47,445 nt of DNA from a virus. Under the pieces are notes generated by a model. The model worked only from the letters and a program-made list of their open reading frames with translations. It had not been told where the DNA came from and searched no databases. The stretch is from positions 1 through 47,445 of the IMG/VR virus record IMGVR_UViG_3300021964_009065. One strand, given 5' to 3'. Shown here piece by piece: positions 10,387-30,533 of this stretch; the first letter of the stretch is position 1; every line of letters starts with the position of its first letter. Made by a program: the position numbers and the translations under genes.

Positions 10387-10394
10387 TATTTATA
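10387..10394 (-). promoter_or_regulatory. T4-type late promoter box before gp13
   Basis: TATAAATA on the minus strand in the gap between the 108-residue gene and gp13, 27 nt from the gp13 ATG. It would drive the neck-terminase operon. Confidence 0.75.
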
Positions 10395-14965: not shown

Positions 14966-15526
14966 TTAACTTGAAGTTACAACGTAAAGTGTATTTGAAT
15001 CAGGTGTACCCGGCAATGATGTAACATTTACAACTGTGATAGTAGGTTTATTAGTAAGATCATCATAATCACCAGTAGTAGCAACTGTGGCTAATGTAGG
15101 TGTGCCTGATAAATCTGAATAGGAACCAGTAGTAGCAACTGTAGCTAATGAAGCAGCTGTTGCATAACTGGATAAATCTGGAGGGGTATATGTAAATGCA
15201 CCTGTAGCAGTATCATATGCTAATGCAGCAGTTCCGACAGAATTTGTAGTAACACTCAGATCAGTAAGAGCAATACCACCTCCACCACCTGATTGCGCTA
15301 CCCATGCATAATCAGTACCATCCCAACTTAAAACATAGCCAGAAGTAGGATTAGATTGGTTTAAGTGCGCGTCAACATCTGAATCTGAATAGCTTGATCC
15401 ACCACCAATATTAGATGTACCTGAAACGGTAAGATTACCTGTAATAGTTACATTACCACCAATACTAGCGTTATCTGTAACTTGCAGGCCGTTTTTGACC
15501 AGAAAGTCTTTATCTGTTGTTGCCAT
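14966..15526 (-). CDS. Short modular tail-fibre protein
   Basis: A 186-residue Gly, Thr and Ser-rich protein starting MATTDKDFLVKNGLQVTDN, followed by GGNVTITGNLTVSGTSNIGG, a typical start of marine T4-like fibre proteins. The middle (about residues 45-130) consists of modules HLNQSNPTSGYVLSWDGTDY and GIALTDLSVTTNS...FTYTPPDLSSY that recur in the large fibres at 28406-35659. It is short enough to be a fibre remnant or a connector. A late promoter box 36 nt upstream gives it its own transcript, separate from the glycan island before it. Confidence 0.75.
   Translation of the reverse strand: MATTDKDFLVKNGLQVTDNASIGGNVTITGNLTVSGTSNIGGGSSYSDSDVDAHLNQSNPTSGYVLSWDGTDYAWVAQSGGGGGIALTDLSVTTNSVGTAALAYDTATGAFTYTPPDLSSYATAASLATVATTGSYSDLSGTPTLATVATTGDYDDLTNKPTITVVNVTSLPGTPDSNTLYVVTSS
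15297..15358 (-). repeat. 62-bp direct repeat, copy left of the glycan island
   Basis: This 62-bp stretch, starting gctacccatgcataatcagt on the plus strand, is identical to 29865-29926, and its first 41 bases are also identical to 34089-34129. It encodes the NPTSGYVLSWDGTDYAWVA module of the fibre proteins. Copies have the same orientation and bracket the glycan island. Confidence 0.9.
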
Positions 15527-15560: not shown

Positions 15561-16244
15561 TTATTTATACATTTTGTATTCTATATTTTCATCATAATTA
15601 CCATTGATTGATACTGTAAATGTAAAATTATGAGTATTTCCATTTTGTTGGTTTAAACCATATTTTCCTATATTTTCAGACCGAGTAGAAGAAGGATATA
15701 AACACATAATATTATTATTTTTAACATAATCGGTAATATTCATGTCCCAAGTTCTATTCCATTTAATATTTTCTTTAAGATTGTTCCATAATGTCTTACT
15801 AATTGACCAGGCCCATGGAGTAAACCAATTCCATTCAAAAATCTTTTCTTGTACACTCAAATCAAACTTGTGTGAAAATGCACATGTTATTAAATTTAAA
15901 TCGTGCGTTTGATAAAAATATTTTAATGTATCATTTGCTATAAGTATATCTTCTTCTATACATACAACATGATCATAGCCTAAATTGAAAACCCTGTCTA
16001 TCCCATCTCTATGATTTGCGCCGCATCCTAAAGGTATATCATTAATTTTTATTGTGTTAGAAGTTAAAGGATAATTAATGTTTTTTAAAAATTTAGTAGC
16101 AATTTTAATAATATTTTTATTATGAGAATCAAAATTAAAAAATAAATCATATTTTTCTAAATATAAAGTTTTAGAAACAGAATCCAATACTTGTTGAAAA
16201 TATTCAGGTCTATTATATGCTATGAATACGATCGCTGATTTCAT
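15561..16244 (-). CDS. GT-A fold glycosyltransferase (GNT-I / GT13-like)
   Basis: A 227-residue protein. The start MKSAIVFIAYNRPEYFQQVL is the usual opening of a GT-A nucleotide-sugar-binding domain. A candidate metal-binding acidic motif CIEEDILIANDTLKYF lies at residues 95-110, resembling the EED/EDD-L..APDF motif of N-acetylglucosaminyltransferase I-like enzymes, and the WFTPWAWSIS segment near 138 fits an acceptor loop. It is the last island gene in transcription order, overlapping the kinase gene by 32 nt. Probable role: adding a sugar to the glycan built by the island. Donor and acceptor are unknown. Confidence 0.75.
   Translation of the reverse strand: MKSAIVFIAYNRPEYFQQVLDSVSKTLYLEKYDLFFNFDSHNKNIIKIATKFLKNINYPLTSNTIKINDIPLGCGANHRDGIDRVFNLGYDHVVCIEEDILIANDTLKYFYQTHDLNLITCAFSHKFDLSVQEKIFEWNWFTPWAWSISKTLWNNLKENIKWNRTWDMNITDYVKNNNIMCLYPSSTRSENIGKYGLNQQNGNTHNFTFTVSINGNYDENIEYKMYK
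15562..15569 (-). promoter_or_regulatory. T4-type late promoter box before the 186-residue fibre gene
   Basis: TATAAATA on the minus strand, 36 nt upstream of the fibre ATG and overlapping the last codons of the first glycosyltransferase-like gene of the island. It marks where a new late transcript starts after the island. Confidence 0.72.
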
Positions 16245-16626
16245 CTATTTCCTTATCAGTTAAAAATTTATCTATTTGTATATCATATGTTGTTGGTTCT
16301 ACAAATACTTTATTGGTATCTTCAAATCTTCCTTTATCAATAGTATTCATCCATATTGTTTTATCTGGATTAAATATCTTTCTTATTTCTGGAGTAGGAG
16401 CAACAAAATCACATATCACAATCTTACCCTTTCTACAATCACTATTGGCTAATGCTTTCATTCTTCGTGCTTGTCTTAAACGTCCTTCTTCACTAAAATC
16501 CCAATCATCAAATGTTTCACGTATAACATCAGCGTTATACCACATTGATCCTTTAAACCTTTGGTGTAGTCTTTGTGCTAGCCAAGTTTTACCAGAACCG
16601 GGTAAACCACATATAAGTATCTTCAT
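16213..16626 (-). CDS. Adenylylsulfate (APS) kinase-like P-loop kinase
   Basis: A 137-residue P-loop kinase of the CysC type. The Walker A motif GLPGSGKT is at residues 7-14, followed by WYNADVIRETFDDWDFSEEGRLRQARR, which matches the APS kinase pattern of a D.(V/L)R (substrate-binding) and an F....R motif, and ICDFVAPTPEIR near 72, equivalent to the S.(I/V)(A/S)P....R motif. CysC phosphorylates APS to PAPS, the sulfate donor; here two sulfotransferase-like genes lie in the same operon. It is shorter than typical CysC (about 200 residues), so a different small-molecule kinase is possible. Confidence 0.75.
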   Translation of the reverse strand: MKILICGLPGSGKTWLAQRLHQRFKGSMWYNADVIRETFDDWDFSEEGRLRQARRMKALANSDCRKGKIVICDFVAPTPEIRKIFNPDKTIWMNTIDKGRFEDTNKVFVEPTTYDIQIDKFLTDKEIDEISDRIHSI

Positions 16627-16970
16627 TAGAATCCTTTATTACGTTCTACATTAATAGCAATTGCTGTAACATCTACATCTGGCTTCTTATCATTCACTAA
16701 TACTCTTTCACCACGAGGTAGATCAAATATAATATGATTAAATCTTATATTATTATCATTTAAGAATTGCATTGTTTGATCTCTAAATTTTTTAGGTCTT
16801 GCAGTAGTCAATATAATCATATCATCTGAATTAAATGTATTCCATAGATCTTTTACACCAGGCAATAATTCATCTCGATCTTCAGTAAATATGAGATTAT
16901 ATTTTAATATAGTACCATCTAGATCAAAAATATACGTTTTAGGGTGTGGTGATTTAAATTCAATATTCAT
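16626..16970 (-). CDS. Small HAD-family phosphatase
   Basis: A 114-residue HAD hydrolase. Motif I is FDLDGT at residues 15-20 with the nucleophile Asp16 and acid Asp18; motif II is LTTARPK at 54-60; the C-terminal LVNDKKPDVD carries acidic residues of the motif III/IV region. Such minimal cap-less HADs in capsule or LPS clusters usually dephosphorylate sugar phosphates. The ATG of the kinase gene overlaps its stop (TAATG). Substrate unknown; probably a sugar phosphate feeding the glycan pathway. Confidence 0.82.
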   Translation of the reverse strand: MNIEFKSPHPKTYIFDLDGTILKYNLIFTEDRDELLPGVKDLWNTFNSDDMIILTTARPKKFRDQTMQFLNDNNIRFNHIIFDLPRGERVLVNDKKPDVDVTAIAINVERNKGF

Positions 16971-17499
16971 ATTGTTTTATTGGATAACCAATTAAATTAA
17001 AAAATTCTTTTCCTAAAGTATTAGTAATAACATTTTTTGCTTCTTGGGTGACTAATGGTGCGTTATATTTTAAATATGTTTTAGTTCTAGCCGGATCCCA
17101 ATCACTGTTGTATGGAATATTTTTTCTTCTATATTTAATTAATAAATCTTCGTAATGAATTAATTTTGTTTTATCTAAAGTAATCCAAGACATATAAAAA
17201 TCTTGGTAAAGCCTACACAATTCTTTTAAATTAATGTGATGAGGACCAAGATAATCTTTTTCATTGTGCAATTTATAAAATGGAAAATATTTTTTAATGT
17301 CCACCTGATTTCTAAAACATATTGATTCAACCCACGTATATGGATTCTTTATAATACAGAATACTTTATGACAATTAACCGGTATTGTTTCATCTCTAAT
17401 TGAATGCTTATGATAAGGATGCACACAATCAGTTACATTACTAAAAATAGATGTAGCAAAATTTGTACCTGATCTTTGTAATCCGTTTAATAAAATCAT
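16960..17499 (-). CDS. Sulfotransferase-like protein (short)
   Basis: A 179-residue P-loop protein starting MILLNGLQRSGTNFATSIF. GLQRSGTNF at residues 5-13 is the 5'-phosphosulfate-binding loop typical of PAPS-dependent sulfotransferases, and CIIKNPYTWVESI near 49-61 fits the 3'-phosphate-binding strand-helix. It is short for the family (usually 250 or more residues). The start is joined to the 31-residue gene in an ATGA overlap, and the end overlaps the HAD gene by 11 nt. Likely transfers sulfate to a glycan; the PAPS could come from the kinase encoded two genes downstream. Confidence 0.75.
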   Translation of the reverse strand: MILLNGLQRSGTNFATSIFSNVTDCVHPYHKHSIRDETIPVNCHKVFCIIKNPYTWVESICFRNQVDIKKYFPFYKLHNEKDYLGPHHINLKELCRLYQDFYMSWITLDKTKLIHYEDLLIKYRRKNIPYNSDWDPARTKTYLKYNAPLVTQEAKNVITNTLGKEFFNLIGYPIKQYEY

Positions 17500-17591
17500 T
17501 TATATATAAATGGATCTTTTTCTTTAGCTTTTTTCAAAAGTCTTTTTGATTTAAAGTAAAAGATAATTTTATTAATTAATTTGGTAAACAT
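17496..17591 (-). CDS. 31-residue basic protein next to carbamoyltransferase
   Basis: I found this by reading the gap after the carbamoyltransferase. It starts MFTKLINKIIFYFKSK and ends KDPFIYK. Support: a GGAG ribosome site 7 nt before the ATG, a start that overlaps the end of the carbamoyltransferase frame by 16 nt, and a stop in an ATGA overlap with the sulfotransferase start. The product is strongly basic with a short hydrophobic, possibly membrane-surface helix. Small partner proteins (DUF5989-like) are encoded next to carbamoyltransferases in many bacteria; this might be a reduced version, but that is an analogy only. Confidence 0.7.
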   Translation of the reverse strand: MFTKLINKIIFYFKSKRLLKKAKEKDPFIYK

Positions 17592-19060
17592 ATTTCTACT
17601 CCATATTTTTTTGACCACCTTAATGCGTCTTCTTTTGAATTTACAAGTGGTTCACCTTTTATATTTAAACTTGTATTTAATAGCATAGGGCACCCAGTTT
17701 TTTCATACCATATTTGAAGTAATTTATATAAATCTGGATGATCATTTTTATTTACAGTTTGAACCCTACTAGTGTTATCATAATGAACAATTGCTGGAAA
17801 TTTATTTGGTTCTAAACAATCTACAGTATATTGCATGTATGGGCTCTTAAATCCTTTATTCACATTAAAATATTTATGAACATATTCTTCTAATATAACT
17901 GGAGCAAAAGGTCTAAATGGTTCTCTGTGTTTAATTTTATTTACTCTATCTTTTACAGTTTTACCTCTTGGGTCTGCTAAGATACTTCTATTACCTAATG
18001 CTCTTGGGCCAAATTCCGCTTTACCACTAGCAACCGCAGTAATTTTATCTATTAATAATTTATTAATAATAGTATCTATAGGATATTTACCTTTTATATC
18101 ATGCCCCAAATATGCTCCAGGAAAATCAATGTGTTCATTCCAATTTGATAACACACAACCAATAGCACTACCAGCATCTCCAGGGTTTGGCATAATCCAT
18201 ACATCATCATATAATTCAAATGACATAGTATTTGCAACACAATTAAGAGCACACCCTCCCATTATAACCAAATTATTTGAATCAATATTTGATTTCATCC
18301 AGACTAAAATAGTAACAAATATTTCCTCATATATCTTTTGAACTGATGCCGCAATATCATAATAATCTTGTTCACTTGTTAAATCAGGTCTCCATGATAA
18401 ACACCCACGATGTAAGTTATTTTTAAATATAATGCTTGGATCATTTGTATTTGGAAGCTTTTCAAAAAAATCATTTTTAATATCATTATAATATTTTTTA
18501 TAATCTCCTAAGGCTGCCATTCCCATTAAAATATATTCATGCTCTTGTGGCTTTAGATCTAATCTTTGTGTCATAGCAGAATACCAAAGACCTACACTAT
18601 TAGGATATCCTTGTGAATATACCTTATTTAAACTATTATTCTTACCATGCCAAATGGTGAATGTTTCCCATTCACCTATACTATCTAAACATAATATTGC
18701 TGCATCTTTAAATGGACTCGTATAATAACCTGCAGCTGCATGACTTCTATGATGGGAACTAAATTTTAATTTAGTATTAATACCAAACTTTTTAAGGTGT
18801 GATTTAGGAGATTTTGATAAAAGTAAATTATATTGACCGGAATATAATTGTCTTGTCTTTTTTAATAAAGGCTTTTCATAAAAATGAATTTCATCAGGTC
18901 GTCCATATGCTAGAGCTTCTTTGATAATATCATCATTTAAATATTCATCATTTTTAACTCTACTGTATCTTTCGCTATGACTAGCAAATACTAATTTTTT
19001 ATTATCAAATACCGCTAAAGCGGCATCATGGCTCATACCACTCCATCCCCATGTAATCAT
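17576..19060 (-). CDS. Carbamoyltransferase (NodU/CmcH family)
   Basis: A 494-residue O-carbamoyltransferase, which uses carbamoyl phosphate and ATP to carbamoylate a hydroxyl of a sugar or other metabolite. Visible signatures are the ATP/carbamoyl-adenylate His motif HHRSHAAAGYY at 103-113, MGGCALNC at 267-274, GPRALGNRSILADPR at 351-365 (characteristic of the family's second domain), PFRPFAPVILEE at 381-392 and LNTSLNIKGEPLV near the end. Slightly shorter than many family members (about 550-600 residues) but all key blocks are present. It follows the SGNH hydrolase gene by 3 nt. Confidence 0.93.
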   Translation of the reverse strand: MITWGWSGMSHDAALAVFDNKKLVFASHSERYSRVKNDEYLNDDIIKEALAYGRPDEIHFYEKPLLKKTRQLYSGQYNLLLSKSPKSHLKKFGINTKLKFSSHHRSHAAAGYYTSPFKDAAILCLDSIGEWETFTIWHGKNNSLNKVYSQGYPNSVGLWYSAMTQRLDLKPQEHEYILMGMAALGDYKKYYNDIKNDFFEKLPNTNDPSIIFKNNLHRGCLSWRPDLTSEQDYYDIAASVQKIYEEIFVTILVWMKSNIDSNNLVIMGGCALNCVANTMSFELYDDVWIMPNPGDAGSAIGCVLSNWNEHIDFPGAYLGHDIKGKYPIDTIINKLLIDKITAVASGKAEFGPRALGNRSILADPRGKTVKDRVNKIKHREPFRPFAPVILEEYVHKYFNVNKGFKSPYMQYTVDCLEPNKFPAIVHYDNTSRVQTVNKNDHPDLYKLLQIWYEKTGCPMLLNTSLNIKGEPLVNSKEDALRWSKKYGVEICLPN

Positions 19061-19063
19061 ATT

Positions 19064-20035
19064 TTAAAATCCTAAGTTTTGTTTAACTTGTTTCCATCTA
19101 TTATAAACTTTATTATTATATTCATATCCTGGATGACTTCCAGTGCGATGATGACCGTAATCTCTAGCAATATTATAATTAGTTTCATTAATTGTGCTCT
19201 TATTATTATTTGGAATTATTTTTTCAATAGATTTATCAAAATCATATTCTGGCAAAGGAGTAATATGCCACACTGGAACATTAGCATATTTGCATAAAGT
19301 GTCAACTTGTTTTTTTATTTCAACAAATGTTCCTTGCATTTGAAAATCGTTTTGCAAATAATTAATATATGCTTCATCATAATAGTTTTCAATAGGAAGC
19401 AACTTTGTTATACCATGTCGTATTATAGTATCACCATGTAAATATGACCAACGTGTTAAATGTGTCCAATTACAAATAATTAGTTTAGGTGGAGCTTTTT
19501 TTGATAACAATTTATTTAAATTAATTAATATTGTATTATTTGAACCTCCTGGAATAGCAGCATTTACAATGTCTGCATTTAATTCTTCAGATATTTTTGT
19601 AGAAAATAAATCTTCAGCTGGCATGCCAGTGCCGACCGTGTAACTACACCCAAAAACAGCAATATAATTTGACCAATCAATATCCTTAAATTCTTTCATT
19701 CTATATCCAAGAGAATTTATTTTATATGTTATAGGTTTATCATACCATATCCATTCTTTACCTAGATGTTCTCTATTTTTAACAAATAATTCTTGTGTAT
19801 CAGTGTCATAGAAATCTAAAACCTTAGATTTATGATGATAAATTTTACTAACATCTATTAATAATTTTTCGTTAAGTAATAAATGATTTCTTTCATTACT
19901 AGATAACAATTTATTCTCAATTTCATCTAAACTTAAACCTGAGTTAACATAAGCATCTAATCCATTATTATCTGGATATCTTGCTAAAATTTTATGATAC
20001 AGGCTAACAATTTTATCTTTTCTCGTCTTAAACAT
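19064..20035 (-). CDS. SGNH/GDSL-like hydrolase with N-terminal DUF4214-type segment
   Basis: A 323-residue two-part protein. Residues 1-50 (IVSLYHKILARYPDNNGLDAYV...LLSS) look like a DUF4214-type repeat found in surface and glycan proteins. Residues 120-323 have an SGNH hydrolase layout: FGCSYTVGTG at 128-137 with the candidate nucleophile Ser131, PGGSNN at 162-167 as the Gly/Asn blocks, and a late His cluster YGHHRTGSHPG where the catalytic His would lie. Such proteins add or remove acyl groups on polysaccharides. The start codon lies within a 28-bp tandem duplication, so a second ATG in another frame occurs just upstream. Confidence 0.75.
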   Translation of the reverse strand: MFKTRKDKIVSLYHKILARYPDNNGLDAYVNSGLSLDEIENKLLSSNERNHLLLNEKLLIDVSKIYHHKSKVLDFYDTDTQELFVKNREHLGKEWIWYDKPITYKINSLGYRMKEFKDIDWSNYIAVFGCSYTVGTGMPAEDLFSTKISEELNADIVNAAIPGGSNNTILINLNKLLSKKAPPKLIICNWTHLTRWSYLHGDTIIRHGITKLLPIENYYDEAYINYLQNDFQMQGTFVEIKKQVDTLCKYANVPVWHITPLPEYDFDKSIEKIIPNNNKSTINETNYNIARDYGHHRTGSHPGYEYNNKVYNRWKQVKQNLGF

Positions 20036-20075
20036 TTTATCTAATCTTTCTCGTCTTAAACATTTTATCTAATCT
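20019..20075 (-). repeat. 28-bp tandem duplication across a start codon
   Basis: Bases 20019-20047 and 20047-20075 are identical over 29 positions with a period of 28. The unit contains the translation start region of the SGNH hydrolase gene (TAAAATGTTTAAGACGAGA on the minus strand), so the ATG is present twice, out of frame with each other. The outer end reaches the stop codon of the preceding sulfotransferase gene (20069-20071). Confidence 0.95.
20037..20063 (-). other. 8-codon upstream reading frame made by the tandem duplication
   Basis: The duplicated ATG at 20061-20063 opens MFKTRKIR and stops with TAA at 20037-20039, one base before the ATG of the SGNH hydrolase gene (TAAAATG). It could couple or dampen translation of the hydrolase, or be neutral. 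Only the sequence arrangement is observed; no function is shown. Confidence 0.4.
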
Positions 20076-20887
20076 AACATCCATTCGTATTTTGTATTTT
20101 GCAACTCTCTACAAATTTCATCATAATTTGTAATATCATATTCAATGCCTTTTGATATTTTTTTAAGTGGTATAGTGTAATTATCATAGTGAGGAATTTT
20201 TATGTAATTTTCTATCATCTTTATGGCAACAAATGGATCATTTTCAATATGATCTTCATAAATAATATCCAAATAATTTACATTGTATTCTTGTAATTTT
20301 AATAATAATTCTTTTTGATCTTTCTCATATACATCAATATATTCATATATTGAAGATATATTATTTCCTCTAGGTAATATGGGATTATGATAATAATTAA
20401 ATGAATCACCTTCATTTAGTTCACTATTCATAATGCATTCATTAAAAGTAAATTTAAATTTAAATTCTGTAGATTGATTATTGTCCTTGTGCCAAATCTT
20501 ACTATATCGGGCTTTATAGTAACTTATAATCTGTTTAAGAATGTTTTTTCTTCTTATAATAATTAAATTTTTAAAATTATTTTTAATAAAATTTGCATGA
20601 ATATCTATGTCATATATTTCAGAAATATATCCAATATCTAAATCACAATATTGAAAACATACTATTTTTTTATTTTTTGGTAACGCCCTAACAACTGGTT
20701 CCATAAAATCTTTTAATGAAACTTCTTTTGGCTTTTGGGGGTTTAATTTTAATCTTTGATTTGTTAATGACACTCTATCCGGCATATATGGTTCATTAAT
20801 TGCATTTACTAATGGATGTTGTGTTAGAATATGGTCTACTGCAGTAGACCCTGATCTTGGATAAAATATTAATGGAATAATTTTCAT
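20069..20887 (-). CDS. Sulfotransferase-like protein (full length)
   Basis: A 272-residue PAPS-dependent sulfotransferase-like protein. The 5'-phosphosulfate loop FYPRSGSTAVDHIL is at residues 8-21, and NLIIIRRKNILKQIISYYKA near 106-125 matches the 3'-phosphate-binding RR..... S motif of the superfamily. INEPY near 30 is also typical. Predicted to transfer sulfate from PAPS to a glycan hydroxyl. It overlaps the cytidylyltransferase gene by 4 nt (ATGA) and precedes the SGNH hydrolase gene. Together with the APS kinase at 16213-16626 it suggests glycan sulfation. Confidence 0.8.
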   Translation of the reverse strand: MKIIPLIFYPRSGSTAVDHILTQHPLVNAINEPYMPDRVSLTNQRLKLNPQKPKEVSLKDFMEPVVRALPKNKKIVCFQYCDLDIGYISEIYDIDIHANFIKNNFKNLIIIRRKNILKQIISYYKARYSKIWHKDNNQSTEFKFKFTFNECIMNSELNEGDSFNYYHNPILPRGNNISSIYEYIDVYEKDQKELLLKLQEYNVNYLDIIYEDHIENDPFVAIKMIENYIKIPHYDNYTIPLKKISKGIEYDITNYDEICRELQNTKYEWMLD

Positions 20888-21648
20888 TTTCTAATAATGT
20901 CCTCTTCATTGCATTCATCACCATATTGTATCTCAATAACACATAATGGTTCTATACCGCAGTTTTCTAACCTATGCCATGTAGTTCTAATAACATCATT
21001 AGAATTATGTCTATATAGTTTTTTCTCAAGTACTTCTTTGCCTTCATGATCAAGTGAATACACTGTTGCTTCACCAGATTCTACAAACCAATATTCAGAT
21101 CTATGATTATGATATTGCATAGAAATGGATTTTCCTGGTTCTAAAATTAATCTTTTAACCTTAGATTCTGGTGATTCATAATATGTAATATATTCACCCC
21201 ATTTTCTTTTAACTGATGGTTGATTCCATTCTTTAAGTATCCATGATGAACTATTCTTTTTATAATCACCACCAATACCAAATACAAATTCAACTCTTGG
21301 ATTATCTTTAAATTTATCCATCTCCGGAATATTAGTAGATGTTCGATCTCCGCCATTAGCAAAGACAATAGTTTGATTTGGCCACATATCGAGTGCATAC
21401 TGTATTGCATTACACGCTGTATTATCTGAATCATCAAATGATATAACTTCAAGTACATTCTTAAATTGATCTAGTACGGCTTTGCGTTCTTCAAAAGGCA
21501 TAAATGATCGACCCTTTTTACGGGCTAACCATTCATCTGAATTTAATGCAAGAATAACTCTGCCAAGTTTTCTACATTCATCAATGCATTGAATATGACC
21601 ACTATGTATAGGATCAAATCCACCACTAAATACTATTATCTTATCCAT
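20884..21648 (-). CDS. Cytidylyltransferase fused to a mannose-6-phosphate isomerase-type cupin
   Basis: A 254-residue two-domain enzyme. The N-terminal domain has the nucleotidyltransferase motif GGFDPIHSGH at residues 9-18 and a later SSSWI (133-137), in the place of the family's ISST..R motif, as in glycerol-3-phosphate or heptose-1-phosphate type transferases. Residues about 148-254 match the C-terminal cupin of ManC/PMI type II enzymes: KVKRLILEPGKSIS, YHNHRSEYWFVESGEA, WHRLENCGIEPL and IEIQYGDECNEEDIIR. I chose the ATG at 21648 because AGGAA lies 6 nt before it; a start two codons further upstream (21654) is possible. It probably makes an activated sugar or polyol for the island. Confidence 0.85.
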   Translation of the reverse strand: MDKIIVFSGGFDPIHSGHIQCIDECRKLGRVILALNSDEWLARKKGRSFMPFEERKAVLDQFKNVLEVISFDDSDNTACNAIQYALDMWPNQTIVFANGGDRTSTNIPEMDKFKDNPRVEFVFGIGGDYKKNSSSWILKEWNQPSVKRKWGEYITYYESPESKVKRLILEPGKSISMQYHNHRSEYWFVESGEATVYSLDHEGKEVLEKKLYRHNSNDVIRTTWHRLENCGIEPLCVIEIQYGDECNEEDIIRK

Positions 21649-21657
21649 AATCATTTC

Positions 21658-22332
21658 CTAATTTTGCGGTTCTAAATACATGCTCCACATTAGAGATTCA
21701 TCTTTAATATATTTATTATTAATTTTAAAATGGTTTGTTTGTATTTCATGCCATTTTGATTTACTAAATGTATCAATAATACCACCATTTAGTTTAGACT
21801 CAATTTCTTCTAATATTTCAATTGAAGGAATTTTTTCTAATAGAGGAAGAATTCTATTAATATCATCATCTGAATATTTCCACCACTGAATTTGCAAGAA
21901 TTTATCAATAATATCTTTCTCAAAACGATATTTAATAAATTTAGCAGGATTCCCTCCATATATAGAGTATGCCGGAACATTTTTTATTACATTAGAATTT
22001 GCTGCAATTATTGCTCCATCTCCTATTGTTACACCGTGTTTTATATGTACATTTGCACCAATCCATACATCATTACCAATAATAATATTTCCCTTTGATG
22101 GATATTTTCTTATTTTTCTATGAGACACGTCCCAATTAGGCGTATGAAAGGGTGAATTAGTTCCTGTTTCTTTATAATGATCTCCATCACTTAAAAACAT
22201 ATGACAATTGTGGGCTATTGATGTAAAATTTCCAATATGTATTTCACTATTTACATTTTTTTCATAAAAAGTGTGTATTTGTATAGGACAAGTATAATAA
22301 GAATATTTACCTACGCTTTTAATTTGTTTCAT
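21658..22332 (-). CDS. Hexapeptide-repeat acyltransferase (CatB/LbH type)
   Basis: A 224-residue left-handed beta-helix acetyltransferase. The repeat region runs from about residue 28 to 150, including IHIGNFTSIAHNCHMF, the catalytic-type His in FLSDGDHY, and the closing IIIGNDVWIGANVHIKHG, VTIGDGAIIAANSNVI and YSIYGGNPAKFIKYRF, which is the signature of the CatB/Vat-like family. It would transfer acetyl from acetyl-CoA to a sugar amino or hydroxyl group. It follows the glycosyltransferase gene by one base. Confidence 0.9.
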   Translation of the reverse strand: MKQIKSVGKYSYYTCPIQIHTFYEKNVNSEIHIGNFTSIAHNCHMFLSDGDHYKETGTNSPFHTPNWDVSHRKIRKYPSKGNIIIGNDVWIGANVHIKHGVTIGDGAIIAANSNVIKNVPAYSIYGGNPAKFIKYRFEKDIIDKFLQIQWWKYSDDDINRILPLLEKIPSIEILEEIESKLNGGIIDTFSKSKWHEIQTNHFKINNKYIKDESLMWSMYLEPQN

Positions 22333-22333
22333 A

Positions 22334-23041
22334 CTAAAATCTATTAAATTTATGAATATTATCTAATTTTTGGTATTCTTTATAGATATCTAATTTTTCA
22401 AGCATTATAAACATTGCTTCAGCATCAACTCCTAATTGATCATTAGCTGGATACACTTTATGGTTTAATATTTTTCCATTATTTCTAGTTACAGCCCATG
22501 AAATAACTAAATCATCTGCCTTGTAACATAACTCTGGATACATTGCTTCATAGTTGAATATATCATACAATAAATTTATATCTATTATTGCAAAATTTGT
22601 GGCACCATAGCTAAATTCAGTATAATCGTTTGTAAACTGGTTCCAAACATCTTTTGTAATAATTGGTTGGGATTTTAAAAATTGCCGGCCTTGAAAAACT
22701 TTATATGTATTTTTTTCTTTTGTTTCCCATATTTTTTCTATAGAATCATTATTTAATATTATATCATCATCTAACAATATAATATATTGATTATCTGACA
22801 AATGTTCATTTATATAATACCATCTTTCAAAAGTCATTCGAGAATTATCGGCTTCATAAAAGTTTATATTAAAATGCCTTTTATATTTGTCAATCACAGA
22901 TAAAAATAGATTATTATGTTTAGGATTATTTGAAATAACATGTAAATTAAAATCTACAGTTTGATTGATTAATGAGTCTAATACTTGTCTAAAATACTGT
23001 GGTCTATTATAAACCATCATTACAACATTAATATCATTCAT
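22334..23041 (-). CDS. GT-A glycosyltransferase (family 2-like)
   Basis: A 235-residue glycosyltransferase. It opens INVVMMVYNRPQYFRQVLDSL, the classical GT-A nucleotide-binding strand-helix, and has the metal-binding motif ILLDDDIIL with Asp91-93. DDLVISWA near residue 192 is a plausible catalytic or acceptor motif. The start overlaps the FkbM methyltransferase gene by 4 nt. It resembles the GT at 15561-16244 in its opening but differs elsewhere. Donor sugar unknown. Confidence 0.82.
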   Translation of the reverse strand: MNDINVVMMVYNRPQYFRQVLDSLINQTVDFNLHVISNNPKHNNLFLSVIDKYKRHFNINFYEADNSRMTFERWYYINEHLSDNQYIILLDDDIILNNDSIEKIWETKEKNTYKVFQGRQFLKSQPIITKDVWNQFTNDYTEFSYGATNFAIIDINLLYDIFNYEAMYPELCYKADDLVISWAVTRNNGKILNHKVYPANDQLGVDAEAMFIMLEKLDIYKEYQKLDNIHKFNRF

Positions 23042-23685
23042 ATTTTTTCCATTACTATATCTTCATCCCATATATCAGATATTATATCCCATTTAAATCC
23101 AAATTTGACACTAATCTCATTAGCAAATTTAATTAATATTTCATTATTATTAAAGTTAGCCGCGCATTCAAAGATAAGTTTTTTATTTACTTTAAATTTT
23201 TTATTTTCCCAAAGATTAACTAATTGCTTTAGGATAATAGGTTCATATCCTTCAACATCTATTTTTAATTGGTCAACTTCAGAAATATTATATTTTTTTA
23301 ATAGAGTTTCAAGACTCATTAATTTTACTATTCTTGTGTGATATGTGTCTTTGTGATGTATTTTATCAGCGCCAATAAATGATGAAGTTCCTGAATGAAA
23401 AATATTCTTTGATTTCATATATCTATCTAATGCTTTTTTATTCTTATATAATTTATGAGGCACATATTCAATAATATCTCCTTCAAGTATAACAGTTAAT
23501 TCTTTTTCTCCATCATATTCACCTATGCCTACACATTCAACAAGAACTGTATCTGATTGGGGCAATATTGCACAGTATTCTTCAATTGGTTCTACTAATA
23601 AACCTTTTGCCGACGTCCCATAAAAATAGTCATCAGATGAAACTGAACACTGACCACATCCTATATCTATAAAATCATATTTCAT
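23038..23685 (-). CDS. FkbM-family methyltransferase, copy 1
   Basis: A 215-residue SAM-dependent O-methyltransferase of the FkbM type. The N-terminal FIDIGCGQCSVSSD is the SAM-binding Gly loop and LKIDVEGYEPIIL at about 140-152 is the family's characteristic K.D.EG.E motif. I set the start at the ATG at 23685 because it aligns with the start of the neighbouring paralogue; an upstream GTG at 23697 would add four residues. It is paralogous to the next gene (23704-24354). Likely methylates a sugar hydroxyl in the glycan. Confidence 0.85.
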   Translation of the reverse strand: MKYDFIDIGCGQCSVSSDDYFYGTSAKGLLVEPIEEYCAILPQSDTVLVECVGIGEYDGEKELTVILEGDIIEYVPHKLYKNKKALDRYMKSKNIFHSGTSSFIGADKIHHKDTYHTRIVKLMSLETLLKKYNISEVDQLKIDVEGYEPIILKQLVNLWENKKFKVNKKLIFECAANFNNNEILIKFANEISVKFGFKWDIISDIWDEDIVMEKI

Positions 23686-23703
23686 TTTTAATATCACTCA
23701 TGA

Positions 23704-24354
23704 TTATTCCATTTTATCCATAACCATATCTTCATTCCAAGGAAAGGTAAATTCATACCTTGAATTAAATCCATGTTTTAATTTTATTCTTTCCATTAAA
23801 TCATCCAATATAGTTTTATCCTCTGCCTTTTCATTATATTCAAATTTAATTTGCTTATTAATAATTATTTTTTTATCATCTAATAGTTTAAGTAATTGAT
23901 TCAATATTATATGCTCAGCACCCTCAACATCAATTTTTAAATAATCTATTTCTGTTACATTATGTTTTTTAAATAAGGATTCTAATGTTAAAGATCTTAC
24001 ATTAATTTTTTTGGATATATTTTGATTTTTTTCATATTCATATAATGAACTCTGACCAGATGCTGGATATAATTTTCTATACAATTCTAAACTTTTGTCG
24101 TTTTTAACAATTCTTGCCATTTGTGTATTTGTGAAATATTTTATATTAGCTGAATCGGGTATAATAGCATTAAAAGTAATAGTATCTTCAACGTTTGATA
24201 CAACACAACATTCTTTTATAATATTTGGGCCTGAAGGTAACACATCAATAAATTCTTTAATAGGCTCTACATACATGCCTACTACACTGGTTCCAAATAT
24301 ATCTGACGAAACACTTTGGTGTCCACATCCTATGTCTATAAATTTATATTTCAT
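23704..24354 (-). CDS. FkbM-family methyltransferase, copy 2
   Basis: A 216-residue FkbM methyltransferase, paralogue of the gene after it in transcription order. It starts MKYKFIDIGCGHQSVSSD, has VEPIKEF..VLPSGP (VEPIEEYCAILPQSD in copy 1) and the motif LKIDVEGAEHIIL. The two copies differ clearly in the middle, so they probably methylate different positions or sugars. The start overlaps the preceding glycosyltransferase gene by 4 nt. Confidence 0.85.
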   Translation of the reverse strand: MKYKFIDIGCGHQSVSSDIFGTSVVGMYVEPIKEFIDVLPSGPNIIKECCVVSNVEDTITFNAIIPDSANIKYFTNTQMARIVKNDKSLELYRKLYPASGQSSLYEYEKNQNISKKINVRSLTLESLFKKHNVTEIDYLKIDVEGAEHIILNQLLKLLDDKKIIINKQIKFEYNEKAEDKTILDDLMERIKLKHGFNSRYEFTFPWNEDMVMDKME

Positions 24355-25085
24355 CTAAAAATTTTCTTGTTATCACACTGTATTACATTATTTATTCTAT
24401 AATATTTAGGATCATCTAACATTATTTTTCTAAGTTTTTCTGTTCTTAGAAAATAATCTGAATTAGTGATATTATCTATCTCTCTACCATTCTTTTTATC
24501 ATGTGGGTGTGGATTATAAAATTTATAATTATTTAAAATATAATAGGGTAACATTTTATTATTCATCCCAACATTGGCCATGATAAAATCTATACCAGTA
24601 CTCCATTCTAAATCTAATTCAAACCATTTATCTATTGTTAACTTTAATAAGTCTTGCCTAACCATCATAAATAGCATTTCTATGTAATTAGTTTTAGAAT
24701 ATTTTCCAGTATTATTACAATATAATTCATTAAAAAATCCATATGAATTAGAAGTTCTGCTCCATTGACATAGAGGCCAATTATTTGAATGGGCTATTTT
24801 AAAAGTATCTTCCAAATCTTTATAATTCAAATCTAAATCACTATCCACAATTAAAACATATTCATAATCTTTAAATAAATTATATCTATTTGCAAAGTTT
24901 TGCCAAATCATTCCTTTACTTTTATATATGTATTCTGTATCTAGATTTTGAAGTTTTTTATACTTTTCTTTATCATCTCCATAATAAAAAATTGCTCTAT
25001 CATATATATCAGATTTATGTGTACACCATGATAAAAATTCATCTGAAGAATCACCTACTCCACTGAAAATTAAATACTTCTTCAT
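24351..25085 (-). CDS. Putative glycosyltransferase with DSD motif
   Basis: A 244-residue protein that reads as a GT-A-like transferase: MKKYLIFSGVGDSSDEFLSWC at the start, a candidate metal-binding motif LIVDSDLDL at residues 78-86, and WSTGIDFIMAN near 165 as acceptor-side residues. It resembles DUF707-type or similar uncharacterised glycosyltransferases. Overlaps its neighbours by 4 nt and 1 nt. Sugar specificity unknown; the enzyme class is inferred from the motif and surroundings. Confidence 0.65.
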   Translation of the reverse strand: MKKYLIFSGVGDSSDEFLSWCTHKSDIYDRAIFYYGDDKEKYKKLQNLDTEYIYKSKGMIWQNFANRYNLFKDYEYVLIVDSDLDLNYKDLEDTFKIAHSNNWPLCQWSRTSNSYGFFNELYCNNTGKYSKTNYIEMLFMMVRQDLLKLTIDKWFELDLEWSTGIDFIMANVGMNNKMLPYYILNNYKFYNPHPHDKKNGREIDNITNSDYFLRTEKLRKIMLDDPKYYRINNVIQCDNKKIFR

Positions 25086-25879
25086 TATATACCAAAATCA
25101 TTTCTTGACATTCTTTGTACTATATAATCTGAGTGATGTTTTTTTTGACGTTCGGCAACTAGATCGCTGCTAATTGTTGTATTTTGATATACTACAGGTT
25201 TTAGTAAAGCATAATAATTAACTACTAATTTTGGATCAAAACATTTTAAATGATTCCAAATATCATCCGCTGGATAAATTATTTTATGTTGAATTGTGGA
25301 TAAAAGTTTACAAAATTCTATTGATGGAGAATAAGCGTGAGCACCATGGACCATATCTACATTATAAGAGTGTTCATCTATTTTATAGTATTTATAACCA
25401 TTTAATTCTAAAAATTCATTTTTAAAATAACAAATGCTGTTATCACCCTTTTCTGTTTTTATCTGTGACATTATTTCATAAGGATATGATTGTTCTTTAG
25501 AATGTTCATTTCTAGTATTAGAGGTAAAATAACCATATAATAATAAGTCTACTTTATCTGGTATGTCTATATTAATCATTTCAGTAAACTTTTCATCTAT
25601 TATAACATCATCTTCAAATATAATTCCTCTTTCACCAGAATCAATAATTTTTTGATATGCTAATCTGTGTGATGCACCACTTGCAGCTTCATTTTTAGAT
25701 AATTCAAAGCCATGTCTTTTCATTAATTTAACATTGCCAATTTCATTTACATCTTTATAGTCTTGGCCGTCAATTGCTTCAATAAATTCATAATTAGTAA
25801 TTCCAAGATTTTGTAACTGTTCTAAAATCTTTTCTTTTCTATCAGTTCGTCTTTTAAGATTTATAATATAAATTTTCAT
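25085..25879 (-). CDS. Glycosyltransferase family 25 (LPS-type)
   Basis: A 264-residue GT25 enzyme. Hallmarks are the N-terminal MKIYIINLKRRTDRKEKI, EFIEAIDG at 31-38, SHRLAYQKIID at about 70-80 and the acidic motif IIFEDDVII at 86-94, followed by HGAHAYSPS, the usual Y(L/I)(I/V)S-like position. GT25 enzymes add galactose or related sugars to lipooligosaccharides. The start overlaps the radical SAM gene in an ATGA junction. Confidence 0.9.
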   Translation of the reverse strand: MKIYIINLKRRTDRKEKILEQLQNLGITNYEFIEAIDGQDYKDVNEIGNVKLMKRHGFELSKNEAASGASHRLAYQKIIDSGERGIIFEDDVIIDEKFTEMINIDIPDKVDLLLYGYFTSNTRNEHSKEQSYPYEIMSQIKTEKGDNSICYFKNEFLELNGYKYYKIDEHSYNVDMVHGAHAYSPSIEFCKLLSTIQHKIIYPADDIWNHLKCFDPKLVVNYYALLKPVVYQNTTISSDLVAERQKKHHSDYIVQRMSRNDFGI

Positions 25880-26853
25880 TTACTTATTTTGGTTTTTATT
25901 CCATGATTATCAAGATTTTGACCAGTTTTTTTCTGGCATATTTCTATACATCTGAAATTTGGATTTGTTTTAAATGACTTTGGAAGAGTCTTCATTGACC
26001 ATTTATTAATTGCGCAGTTTATTAGTGGAAGATCATTAGAAGGTCTATTTACAATTCTATTTGGTAAATGTTGAGAACTTAGTGATGCCAACCAACAACA
26101 TACATGTACGTTGCTATCAGCTGCAATATATATGCTATTTTTCTTTGCCGAATAGCAATCTATTTCTTTGGTAGGAATATTTGAATTTGTGTATTTAGTA
26201 GTTTTTTCAAGAGAATAATTAGATCCTTTAAACACATAGTTTAATGGAGCTTCTAATCTTGTAGACGGTTCTATTGAAAACCCAGAAAACCCCATATCTT
26301 TAGCAGTTTTTTCACAAATATCAACTTGGTCTTCATTATGCTTGTGAACTACCATTTTCCAAGTAGCACATCCGCCTGCTTCTATAAAAGCTTTTGCGTT
26401 ATTAAATATTTTATTAATAGATGTACCAACCCTATACCTACTGTGTATTTCTTGTGTAACACCTTCAATACCAAACTCTACATAATGATTTTGTTCTTTT
26501 AGTATTCCTGCAAGCGTTTTCCACCATCCAGTCGATCGAACTCCGCCATTTGTATGTACAGTTATTTTATCAGGTTTTATCGCTGTTTTAGTGTATTCAA
26601 TAATATCTAGAAAATCTTTTGCTAAAATAGGATCGCCATAATTACCACAGAAGAACATATCATATATTGGTTTATCCCATGAACTAAACATTTTTTTAAA
26701 TGTATCTATTGTAATTTCATTTCCTTTTACAGATTCAGCTGTAGTTAAACTACCATCATTATTAATCTTTGTTCTTGCACAGGAAGGACATCTAGCATTA
26801 CATTTATCAGTAAGCTCTATATGAAATTGAAACGGCTTTTTAATATCATACAT
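25876..26853 (-). CDS. Radical SAM protein with SPASM-like C-terminus
   Basis: A 325-residue radical SAM enzyme. The iron-sulfur cluster motif is C18-x3-C22-x2-C25 (CNARCPSC) after FHIELTD, and the GNYGDPI and VHTNGG stretches at about 69 and 99 fit SAM-binding strands. The C-terminal part has further Cys (CYSAKK, VHVCCW, CIEICQK) where SPASM auxiliary clusters bind. Substrate unknown. In glycan clusters such enzymes can dehydrate, epimerise or methylate sugars, and SPASM enzymes also modify peptides. Confidence 0.85.
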   Translation of the reverse strand: MYDIKKPFQFHIELTDKCNARCPSCARTKINNDGSLTTAESVKGNEITIDTFKKMFSSWDKPIYDMFFCGNYGDPILAKDFLDIIEYTKTAIKPDKITVHTNGGVRSTGWWKTLAGILKEQNHYVEFGIEGVTQEIHSRYRVGTSINKIFNNAKAFIEAGGCATWKMVVHKHNEDQVDICEKTAKDMGFSGFSIEPSTRLEAPLNYVFKGSNYSLEKTTKYTNSNIPTKEIDCYSAKKNSIYIAADSNVHVCCWLASLSSQHLPNRIVNRPSNDLPLINCAINKWSMKTLPKSFKTNPNFRCIEICQKKTGQNLDNHGIKTKISK

Positions 26854-26865
26854 AATTTAAAACTT

Positions 26866-28386
26866 TTATTTTAATCTTTTTAGTGCTTCTAATTTATTAA
26901 ATATGTCTTGACGTTTCTTTTGTTTATCTACTTGAGATCCAAATAAAACATTCTTCATTTTAGCATAGATTATATCATGTTTACTTATTGTATCCCATTG
27001 ATCATATTGATTTTTACCAGTCCACCCTATATTATGATGGAACCTTTTATTAATTTCAGGGTGTAAAAACGTAAGAGTTGGGTCTGATTGTATTCCGCCT
27101 TTACCATAATTTTCATTTAAATTTACAAAAGGCAATTGTGTCATTTTCAATGTTTTATAAACAATAAATCCATCATATGGTTCACCCATTGGTAATATAT
27201 TTTCTACTTTATAGTTTTCTTTGAATTTTTTATTCCAGATTTTTGTATTCGGATGTTTACTATCAAAAATAAGTATGCCACTTTCAATGTGGTTTAAATC
27301 ATGCGATTCTTCCATTTGACACGCAAGGAATTTATTATCAAGCATGTTTGGAAAGTCAGAATAGTCTTCAGGTTTAAATATACAATCACCGTCTAACCAT
27401 ATTGCATAATCTGATTTAATATTATCAAGTGCGTGTTGTATTACAAATGCTTTATGACTAAATCTAACTGTCATAGTTTTTACATAATCTGAATGAGATG
27501 TTTTGGCATTATATTCATTTTTCCATTTATTATGGTGTGGAATTGCCGTTTTATAATTAACCCATTCTATATTTGGATGTTGTTCTTGTGGACTAAACCC
27601 TTCGTAATATATTTTTGCGTTGAATTTATTGTAATAATTAGCAACTTTTATGAAAGTTTTTATCCATGTTTTACCATATAATTCATACCCATTTCTATTA
27701 AATGTTGTAAAAAATGTAATATTGTTACTTTGTGTTCTTTCCTCATTCATATGTTTTTCCATTATTCTCCACGAATCATAATCATTAGCACCAGTAATAC
27801 TTGCCTGAGAATGGATTAATGTACCACTAGTTCTCATATCTGAATCTAATAAAAATTGTACTTCATCATTTGAAATATAATTTGTTTCAATTATATTATA
27901 ATATTTTCTTATTGCTGTATGTAATGAATGCATTCCCCACGAAATTGCATGCTTATTTGTAATATGTTTTGCCTCAAATAACATATTATCCATTGCTTCT
28001 TTAATAATGGGGTGTTTTGGTTTTGCACCAAAGAAATAATTTGATATATTATTTAATTCACGCATCCAAACAGCATCTACTTTTGGATTAATAAATTCTG
28101 AAATATTTTTATTACATGTAATATCTAAATCAGAATAATATCCACCATGAATATAAACGACAGCAAGACGCCAAAAATCAGCGCGCATAATTGGAAGTGG
28201 AAGTTGATGATATTGATTATGAATGTCTTTGCCAAAATGCTCTAATATAAAATCAGAACATTGGTTATCATCCATAAATTGAAGTTTAAGTTGTGGATTA
28301 GAGATTTTCCAGGAATCAGCTTGTTTTTTAACTGATCCTGGAATATCTTTTGTTTTCCATGTTTGCCATAATATAGAAGGAATCAT
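26866..28386 (-). CDS. Two-domain glycosyltransferase (GT32-like plus second GT-A domain)
   Basis: A 506-residue protein with two transferase domains. Residues 1-220 match the sugar-binding DXD family (GT32, Och1-like): IPSILWQTWKTKDIP, MRADFWRLAVVYIHGG and the metal site YYSDLD with Asp86 and Asp88. From about residue 222 a second unit starts (NNITFFTTFNRNGYELYGKTW) with its own acidic motif WLDGDC at 330-335 and EESHDLNHIESGIL further on. It could add two successive sugars. It is the first gene of the island in transcription order and lies 19 nt after the fibre gene at 28406-30478. Confidence 0.85.
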   Translation of the reverse strand: MIPSILWQTWKTKDIPGSVKKQADSWKISNPQLKLQFMDDNQCSDFILEHFGKDIHNQYHQLPLPIMRADFWRLAVVYIHGGYYSDLDITCNKNISEFINPKVDAVWMRELNNISNYFFGAKPKHPIIKEAMDNMLFEAKHITNKHAISWGMHSLHTAIRKYYNIIETNYISNDEVQFLLDSDMRTSGTLIHSQASITGANDYDSWRIMEKHMNEERTQSNNITFFTTFNRNGYELYGKTWIKTFIKVANYYNKFNAKIYYEGFSPQEQHPNIEWVNYKTAIPHHNKWKNEYNAKTSHSDYVKTMTVRFSHKAFVIQHALDNIKSDYAIWLDGDCIFKPEDYSDFPNMLDNKFLACQMEESHDLNHIESGILIFDSKHPNTKIWNKKFKENYKVENILPMGEPYDGFIVYKTLKMTQLPFVNLNENYGKGGIQSDPTLTFLHPEINKRFHHNIGWTGKNQYDQWDTISKHDIIYAKMKNVLFGSQVDKQKKRQDIFNKLEALKRLK

Positions 28387-28405: not shown

Positions 28406-30478
28406 TTATTGAGCCGAATCTGCCAGTTTCCATGCTGAGCCAGTCCAGACATAAAAATGTACGTCTTTACCGCCTAAGCTATTTAAATTACCAACTATGT
28501 TCCCATCCAAAGTTGGATAGTTTTGTGATCCTGCAAAAGATAGATATATTGTTATAGATTGTCCTACTGCAGTACCATTTGCAATCGGAATTGTTTTACC
28601 CGTTTGACTAGTTGCAAAAGATAACATATATACTTCACCGGGTGTAAATTGTGTAAGTTGATCAATATTATTATCAGTAATTAAATTAACATTTGGTGAT
28701 GCAGGTACAGATGGAATATCACTAACAAGTGGAACTTTATTCCATGCAGTTGTATATAATTCTAATGCCGTTTCATCCTTATTATAACGAACCATGCCTT
28801 CCTGACCAGTTGTTAATGGAAGTATAGTAGTCGTAGTCGAGGATGTAGTAGCAACCACTAAGCTCAGAGCTTCACTTTCAACAACTGCGATTTGATCATA
28901 TGAGCCCTTTTCTATAAATTTAGGTATAGAAACAGTTTGAATATTAACATCATAACCATAAGAACTCAGAGATACAGTGTATACTGAAGTATCATCAAGA
29001 TTAAAAATAATTGATTCATCGGTAGTCCAAAAAACGGTATCAGAAACATCACTCGCTGAAACATCCCGGATAAAATTAGAAACTGTAAAACTTCCAGAAG
29101 CTTGTAGTTTTTCAACAGCGCTCCGTGCTTTAGCTTCAGTTTTAAAAGCATTTAAGCTAACAGTCCACTTATTATTACCGATTGGAACAGCGTTTACATA
29201 TAAAGAATTTACCCCTAAATTAGGTCTAACGTTACCAGGAAAGATTAGTTCTTCAGCAGTAGCAGTCTCTATTGTTGCTGTTGTAGTTTCAACTACAGCA
29301 GGGAACATCCAATCACCTGTACTTACATCTAAGTTACCATTAATATCTACAACACCCTGATCGCCACCATATTGTAATGCGGTTGATGCATCAGGTGTAA
29401 GAGTATTTGTTGTGTGTAAAATATCACCAATGAGAACAGTATCTGTAACAAGACCGTCAGTACTACCTGTTAATGTTGCACCACCGATGACAACAGAGCT
29501 AGTTGTCATACTAGAATTACCAACAGCCAATGAATTACCAACAGCCAATGAATTACCAACAGCCAATGAATTACTTAAGAATGCATCATACCATTGTTTA
29601 TCAATTGAACCTAAGTCATAAACAGCATCAAATGAAGGTAGAATATCTTCAGCGACAGCTGAGAAATCTGCTGAACCACCAGATGCTGTACTTGCAATAG
29701 TAATAGTGTTTGCATCAGATCTAGTTATTGTAACATTTGATCCTGCTGCCAATTTTACTGAATCAGTGGATGCGTCATTACCCACTAATGTGAGGTTTGC
29801 ACCGCCAGTAGTTGTGTCAGCTTGCATTGTATACTGGGTATTGCCATCAGCACCAGATGCTTGAGCTACCCATGCATAATCAGTACCATCCCAACTTAAA
29901 ACATAGCCAGAAGTAGGATTAGATTGATTTAAATGACTGTCAACATCTGAATTTGTATATCCGGCATTACTTACCCATGCATAATCACTACCACTCCAAC
30001 TTAATACATGGCCAGAAGTAGGATTTTCATTATTTAAATGGGTATCTATTGCTGAATTAAGCCCAGAAGTTGTTTGATAACTGGATAATGAAGCAGTTGT
30101 TGCATAACTGGACAAATCTGGTGGAGTATAAGTAAATGCACCTGTAGCAGTATCATATGATAATGCAGCGCTGCCAGCTGAATTTGTAGTAACACTTAGA
30201 TCAGATAAACCGATGCCTGCATCAGATGAGTTAACCCAAATTGAACCATTGTACTTAAGTACTTGACCATTTGATGGTGTCGTAAGGGTTACATTAGATA
30301 AATCTCCTAAATTTGATACAAGATCCGATTCTAATGCTAATGGGTGACCACCATTGGTTGAGCCATCCATAACAACCAATGTATTTTTGGTTGTATCCAT
30401 GAAAAACTCACCAATAGCTCCAGATACACTTGATAAATTTGTTGTGGTATCTCTTCTATGTTGTAAGACTTTTGCCAT
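28406..30478 (-). CDS. Modular tail-fibre protein with Mtd-like N-terminus
   Basis: A 690-residue fibre protein. The start MAKVLQHRRDTTTNLSSVSG, followed by GEFFMDTTKNTLVVMDGS, is the fold seen at the N-terminus of major tropism determinant (Mtd) and many fibres. Residues 90-220 are repeated modules (LSDLSVTTNS, FTYTPPDLSSY, NPTSG(Y/H)VLSW) shared with the other fibres. A triple NSLAVG repeat lies near residue 305. The C-terminal part (about 470-690) is distinct, with SVYTVSLSSYGYDV and a last domain ending in HFYVWTGSAWKLADSAQ. Two late promoter boxes lie upstream; the glycan island follows on the same strand. Confidence 0.85.
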   Translation of the reverse strand: MAKVLQHRRDTTTNLSSVSGAIGEFFMDTTKNTLVVMDGSTNGGHPLALESDLVSNLGDLSNVTLTTPSNGQVLKYNGSIWVNSSDAGIGLSDLSVTTNSAGSAALSYDTATGAFTYTPPDLSSYATTASLSSYQTTSGLNSAIDTHLNNENPTSGHVLSWSGSDYAWVSNAGYTNSDVDSHLNQSNPTSGYVLSWDGTDYAWVAQASGADGNTQYTMQADTTTGGANLTLVGNDASTDSVKLAAGSNVTITRSDANTITIASTASGGSADFSAVAEDILPSFDAVYDLGSIDKQWYDAFLSNSLAVGNSLAVGNSLAVGNSSMTTSSVVIGGATLTGSTDGLVTDTVLIGDILHTTNTLTPDASTALQYGGDQGVVDINGNLDVSTGDWMFPAVVETTTATIETATAEELIFPGNVRPNLGVNSLYVNAVPIGNNKWTVSLNAFKTEAKARSAVEKLQASGSFTVSNFIRDVSASDVSDTVFWTTDESIIFNLDDTSVYTVSLSSYGYDVNIQTVSIPKFIEKGSYDQIAVVESEALSLVVATTSSTTTTILPLTTGQEGMVRYNKDETALELYTTAWNKVPLVSDIPSVPASPNVNLITDNNIDQLTQFTPGEVYMLSFATSQTGKTIPIANGTAVGQSITIYLSFAGSQNYPTLDGNIVGNLNSLGGKDVHFYVWTGSAWKLADSAQ
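29520..29573 (-). repeat. Three tandem 18-bp repeats in a fibre gene
   Basis: The unit ccaacagccaatgaatta on the plus strand occurs three times in a row without mismatch, encoding three NSLAVG repeats in the 690-residue fibre. Copy-number changes keep the reading frame. Confidence 0.95.
29865..29926 (-). repeat. 62-bp direct repeat, copy right of the glycan island
   Basis: Identical to 15297-15358 over 62 bp and in the same orientation; 41 bp of it also match 34089-34129. A second shorter shared block (28 bp) lies at 30132-30159 and 15192-15219. Confidence 0.9.
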
Positions 30479-30517: not shown

Positions 30518-30533
30518 TATTTATATATTTATA
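30518..30533 (-). promoter_or_regulatory. Two tandem T4-type late promoter boxes before the fibre-island operon
   Basis: Two back-to-back TATAAATA boxes on the minus strand (30518-30525 and 30526-30533), 40 nt upstream of the 690-residue fibre gene. The glycan island follows that fibre gene without another such intergenic box, so this promoter probably drives both. Confidence 0.78.

Follow-up and report, generated by a model that had tools for sequence, protein, structure and literature searches.

A sixteen-gene glycan-building and capping island, bracketed by putative late promoters, in the host recognition cluster of a T4-type phage

Gene content of the island

The IMG/VR virus record IMGVR_UViG_3300021964_009065 is a 47,445-base fragment (hereafter the window) of a phage genome of a type that is roughly 140-200 kb in size. 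It carries structural genes and, at positions 15561-28386, an island of glycan-building and capping genes, both on the minus strand, as are all features located below. The island consists of 16 tightly packed open reading frames (ORFs) coding for proteins of 114-506 amino acids. Eight of its 15 gene junctions overlap and 13 fall within -32 to +12 nucleotides (nt), the exceptions being gaps of 33 and 76 nt. An earlier, sequence-only reading of this DNA had described sixteen genes plus a tiny one, nearly all overlapping; the sixteen genes and their tight packing are confirmed. The tiny gene is probably a 40-amino acid, lysine-rich ORF with a GTG start (17496-17618) that bridges the one large gap of the island. 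This ORF, which may not be real, could represent either a small gene or a remnant.

From its upstream end, the island begins with a two-domain glycosyltransferase made of a GT32-type DXD domain and a C-terminal domain (26866-28386; Pfam Gly_transf_sug, 50 bits), followed by a radical SAM protein (25876-26853; Pfam Radical_SAM, 45.7 bits), a GT25 glycosyltransferase (25085-25879; Pfam Glyco_transf_25, 83.7 bits) and a probable GT-A glycosyltransferase recognised by its DSD motif only, with no profile match (24351-25085). Two FkbM-type methyltransferases (23704-24354 and 23038-23697; Pfam, 51 and 45.8 bits) precede a GT2-type glycosyltransferase (22334-23041; Pfam Glycos_transf_2, 37.4 bits) and a left-handed beta-helix O-acetyltransferase of the Vat/CatB-like fold family (21658-22332), which matches Pfam Hexapep and scores 139.7 bits against an NCBIfam cutoff of 300. 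The central part encodes a TagD/HldE-type nucleotidyltransferase fused to a mannose-6-phosphate isomerase-type cupin (20884-21654; Pfam), a sulfotransferase-like protein (20069-20887; Pfam Sulfotransfer_3, 23.9 bits for a cutoff of 27, E 5.9e-5), an SGNH-type hydrolase with a DUF4214-like N-terminus (19064-20035; motif and weak Pfam match) and a NodU-type carbamoyltransferase (17576-19060; Pfam, 184.8 and 144.4 bits; phrog_1601). The last four genes code for a second, small sulfotransferase-like protein identified by its GLQRSGTN loop and late YEDLL motif only, with no profile match (16960-17499), a small HAD-type phosphatase with weak Pfam (below cutoff) and PHROG matches (16626-16970), an APS-kinase-like P-loop kinase (16213-16626; Pfam APS_kinase, 36.2 bits for a cutoff of 21.1; best solved relative 2yvu, E 5e-8) and a GNT-I-like GT-A glycosyltransferase (15561-16244; Pfam GNT-I, 25.0 bits for a cutoff of 25.4).

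Most of the enzyme list proposed beforehand is borne out by Pfam, namely the NodU, GT25, GT32-type, GT2, radical SAM and nucleotidyltransferase-cupin proteins, the acetyltransferase and both FkbM-type methyltransferases. The matches of the GNT-I-like protein, the phosphatase and the sulfotransferase remain below cutoff, and the DSD-type and SGNH proteins are recognised by motif only. The APS-kinase-like gene had been left unnamed in that list. No membrane helix is predicted in any island protein, and all 16 enzymes look soluble.

Late promoters around the island

A gene for a fibre or receptor-binding protein with an Mtd_N domain (28406-30478; Pfam Mtd_N, 39 bits) lies directly upstream of the island, from which it is separated by 19 nt, and a second fibre gene (14966-15526; phrog_9729) follows it. 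We searched the window for the T4-type late promoter box TATAAATA; motifs of this type are the known late promoter of T4, the cyanophage form being NATAAATA (PMC2984593). The box occurs nine times on the minus strand, a total at chance level, but its placement is non-random: seven of the nine boxes sit 17-47 nt upstream of a gene start, with an eighth at 73 nt, while the 60-nt zone upstream of starts represents 5% of positions (P about 4e-8). Two adjacent copies of TATAAATA precede the Mtd_N fibre gene (30518-30533, starting at 30518 and 30526) and likely mark the start of a transcript running into the island, the 19-nt gap containing neither a terminator-like site nor a late box. At the other end, a late box (15562-15569) shares bases with the stop codon that ends the island, 35 nt before the downstream fibre gene, and another late promoter is found at 10387, ahead of the neck gene gp13. 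The position between two fibre genes and the late fibre transcript proposed in the sequence-only reading are consequently both supported, the latter by the boxes at 30518/30526 and 15562. Two weaker AATAAATA boxes located ahead of genes within the island (21710 and 24389) and one exact box inside the GT25 gene make late starts inside the island possible as well. CTAAATA and sigma-70 boxes are not above chance. Similar promoters are present in relatives: NATAAATA lies 16-30 nt upstream of gp13 in most loci, and in Pelagibacter phage Mosig, divergent late boxes mark the start of the related island, with a further one where it ends, ahead of the next tail gene.

Judged by these promoters, the island probably belongs to the same late transcription unit as one fibre gene and is immediately followed by another. 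Such an arrangement suggests that the island enzymes could glycosylate and cap the fibre proteins of the phage itself in the cytoplasm, before or during assembly, thereby altering adsorption or shielding the virion, an alternative that we consider seriously though tentatively. The apparent solubility of the enzymes and the lack of any encoded lipid carrier or export step would agree with it, and virion glycosylation by phages has a precedent in the glycosylated capsids and tail tubes of mycobacteriophages (Freeman 2023, as cited in PMC12619734 and PMC11256854). Most fibres of the window contain 25-31% serine plus threonine, compared to 8-15% in the island proteins, but a high content of these residues is normal for fibre shafts, and no protein-specific glycosyltransferase family was found.

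The island lies in the host recognition cluster

Comparison of portal proteins gave 57% identity with Methylophilales phage Melnitz, 54% with Mosig and about 53% with cyanophages. Since its portal and core structural genes are closest to those of Kyanoviridae, the phage is, as far as pairwise identity rather than a tree can tell, a Kyanoviridae-like T4-type myophage, in agreement with the T4-like affiliation proposed earlier. In pelagimyophages and cyanomyophages, the region between VrlC and the neck genes was described as the host recognition cluster (HRC), containing fibres, glycosyltransferases and radical SAM cassettes, and was proposed to change the host O-chain and to avoid co-infection (Zaragoza-Solas 2020; PMC7029224). 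The island of the window lies between a baseplate/VrlC-like gene (45075-47123; phrog_358/877), whose product matches VrlC-annotated proteins of Mosig and HTVC008M, and the neck genes gp13 (9374-10360; phrog_211), the conserved right border of the HRC, and gp14. This region likewise combines tail fibres with glycosyltransferases and other enzymes, and its content differs between contigs L009, L175 and L246, Mosig and Melnitz. The island is therefore an elaborate example of an already described class of HRC islands. It shares with them a hypervariable mix of fibres, glycosyltransferases, radical SAM proteins and other enzymes, and differs from them by its long run of 16 genes rich in capping enzymes, by probable sulfation and by its late-promoter bracketing. 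This bracketing, the comparison of the slot among relatives and the lateral exchange reported below are what our analysis adds.

In relatives, 82 ORFs were collected from the region immediately preceding gp13; their commonest families are bilin reductase (12 ORFs), heme oxygenase (10 ORFs) and 2OG-Fe(II) oxygenases, and sugar or sulfate genes are rare. Cassettes of these three kinds dominate the slot, for instance in loci L193, L194, L209, L228 and L234, and also in Mosig (L007). Different types of late cargo can thus occupy the slot, and in most relatives this cargo is unrelated to fibres, so nearness to fibre genes is weak evidence for fibre decoration. The sequence-only reading had argued that position and density of the decorating enzymes point to a purpose different from that of the lipopolysaccharide (LPS)-type clusters of marine phages. 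In this form the argument is not supported, the position being that of the published HRC, where similar clusters are read as modifying the host O-chain, and the slot carrying mostly bilin reductase, heme oxygenase and 2OG-Fe(II) oxygenase cargo in relatives.

No annotated phage record with DNA resembling the island was found. Mosig (EXVC030M, MT647606) carries in the same slot carbamoyltransferase, methyltransferase, acetyltransferase and radical SAM-type genes, as does the window, but has no annotated glycosyltransferases and more oxygenases and amino-acid/porphyrin-type enzymes, and part of its island lies on the opposite strand. Prochlorococcus phage P-SSM2, which bears 24 LPS genes in two clusters (PMC2984593), resembles the window in carrying LPS-type genes, and its NodU-type carbamoyltransferase is 30.6% identical to that of the island.

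Exchange of the cassette between phages

A related cassette was detected directly before gp13 on the IMG/VR contig 3300021961_008646 (L009). It encodes GT32-type, GNT-I-like and second GT32/GT2-type glycosyltransferases, a sulfotransferase, an SGNH hydrolase, a NodU-type carbamoyltransferase, an FkbM-type methyltransferase and an epimerase. Compared to the window, it has the additional epimerase and fewer genes, L009 being itself a fragment. The NodU, SGNH and GT32-type proteins of the two islands are 84%, 76% and 61% identical, respectively, whereas gp13 of L009 is 84% identical to that of Mosig and only 46% to that of the window. Because proteins of islands in the same slot are 61-84% identical while the adjoining gp13 proteins are only 46% identical, the simplest reading of these sequences is that the cassette was exchanged between phage lineages within one slot. 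In L246, an epimerase, a sulfotransferase-like and another epimerase gene precede gp13.

The association of the cassette with one particular fibre is variable. Contig L016 shows an Mtd_N-like fibre gene closely followed by a GT32-type gene, which would favour decoration of the fibre. Yet in L175, which is closely related to the phage on the baseplate side, another ORF takes the place of the glycosyltransferase after the same Mtd_N fibre N-terminus; the cassette is therefore not tied to that fibre. A more elaborate proposal, in which the phage would, late in infection, equip its own tail fibres with a glycan bearing sulfate, carbamoyl, methyl and acetyl groups, receptor specificity or shielding being set by a transferable cassette that spreads independently of the fibre genes, appears quite improbable to us.

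Sulfation and the APS-kinase-like gene

Sulfation of the glycan is plausible, since two relatives have clearer sulfotransferase members; the L009 island contains a Sulfotransfer_2 match of 51.5 bits, above cutoff. Phage sulfotransferases without assigned function were also reported in OM43 phage genomes and a cyanophage (PMC10580990). A search of 50,697 phage records gave no match to the sulfotransferase-like protein encoded at 20069-20887. Viral contigs were also scanned with this protein, with the second sulfotransferase-like protein and with the GT32-type protein; the scans were empty, but carry little weight as the GT32-type scan missed L009. AlphaFold models of both sulfotransferase-like proteins, built without alignments, reach a mean predicted local distance difference test score (pLDDT) of about 32.

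The presence of an APS-kinase-like gene and one or two sulfotransferase-like genes in the island, together with the sulfotransferase match of L009 and the sulfotransferase-like gene that L246 carries in its gp13 slot, could suggest that the kinase and phosphatase genes combine with the sulfotransferase-like ones into a self-sufficient module for supply of 3'-phosphoadenosine 5'-phosphosulfate (PAPS) and sulfation, which would fit either acceptor. We surveyed the neighbourhoods of APS-kinase-like genes in 80 viral loci (L075-L154), which were not dereplicated. The kinase gene adjoins a small nucleotidyltransferase gene (MLGRWQPWHxGH) in 59 of them and has a NodU gene nearby in 20, while as little as a sulfotransferase-like motif is found in only two. 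Stenotrophomonas phages have the kinase as well, in the vicinity of DNA-metabolism genes. Moreover, it aligns with NCBIfam apsK over residues 3-83 only, scoring 31.8 of the 138.7 bits required, and thus falls short of a full-length match at equivalog level. As the neighbourhoods point to nucleotidyltransferases and NodU instead of sulfotransferases, we rejected the PAPS module, which we regard as unlikely, and the kinase more likely belongs with a nucleotide-activated substrate. APS-kinase-like and small nucleotidyltransferase genes form a recurring viral gene pair.

What the enzymes may act on

Phage glycosyltransferases can act on DNA (PMC12619734), and the radical SAM protein, kinase and carbamoyltransferase of the island have no assigned substrate, so the cassette might conceivably modify phage DNA or have a small molecule, not a surface glycan, as its product. 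This is highly improbable: GT25, GT32, FkbM, hexapeptide acetyltransferase and nucleotidyltransferase-cupin proteins are typical of surface glycans, no evidence that nucleotides are modified or DNA glycosylated was reported for cyanomyoviruses (PMC2984593), and late expression would come after DNA replication.

We instead favour, with a probability of about 45%, a glycan-building and capping cassette that is expressed late, is exchanged horizontally and acts on a host envelope glycan. This reading is based on the enzyme classes, on the published interpretation of the HRC and on the homologues of the nucleotidyltransferase-cupin protein in SAR86, which are 39-49% identical over their full length. 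In several of the SAR86 genomes (L157-L166), the corresponding gene is found beside or at the edge of O-antigen, sugar-nucleotide or nonulosonate clusters; in others, such as L159 and L164, it has ordinary housekeeping neighbours instead. We infer that the cassette would be read from the late promoters ahead of the upstream fibre gene and that its soluble enzymes would act inside the infected cell, in its cytoplasm. The nucleotidyltransferase-cupin protein, possibly with the kinase and phosphatase, would produce or modify an activated sugar or polyol, the four to five glycosyltransferases would assemble a short branch, and methyl, acetyl, carbamoyl and probably sulfate groups would cap it. The acceptor would be an intermediate of a host envelope glycan, such as LPS core or O-chain. 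Such a late change may keep new virions off debris and already infected cells, and block the binding of rival phages.

Several points weigh against a host glycan. Late timing is poorly suited to blocking early superinfection, a transcript shared with a fibre gene fits fibre decoration equally well, and Pfam detects no lipid-linked initiating transferase, Wzx/Wzy or ABC exporter among the island proteins, the rest of the genome being absent from this 47-kb fragment. The sequence-only reading had taken the lack of export genes as favouring modification of phage proteins or of an existing glycan. It argues little, because the record is a fragment and because modifying an existing host glycan needs no exporter. 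From sequence, the host glycan is only slightly favoured over fibre protein as the probable acceptor.

These results add evidence of timing and mobility to the question of what glycan enzymes in marine T4-like fibre loci act on: late promoters would group the island enzymes with the proteins of the virion, and the cassette passes from one lineage to another in the same slot. The acceptor question can be tested with Mosig, a cultured phage that has a related island.

Flanking genes and base composition

On the minus strand, the VrlC-like gene is followed by fibre and collar genes, the island, the downstream fibre gene, two large orphan proteins and the genes gp13 to gp20, with gp14 at 8213-9370, gp15 at 7491, gp17 at 5905, then gp18, gp19 and gp20. 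The two large proteins (10726-12723 and 12979-14955) have no PHROG match, and the former has no Pfam match either. They share similar N-termini (MAIxWxDPYLxTxxGGIHGTT), contain 21% serine plus threonine and are probably new fibre-type proteins.

The low GC content of the island (27% against 35%) was considered as a sign of recent foreign origin and discarded. All island genes have a third-position GC of 12-17%, close to that of most flanking genes, so the difference largely reflects amino-acid content.

The C-terminus of gp14 is extended by a repeat-rich stretch similar to parts of other phage structural proteins, and an insertion makes gp13 about 60 amino acids longer than its relatives.

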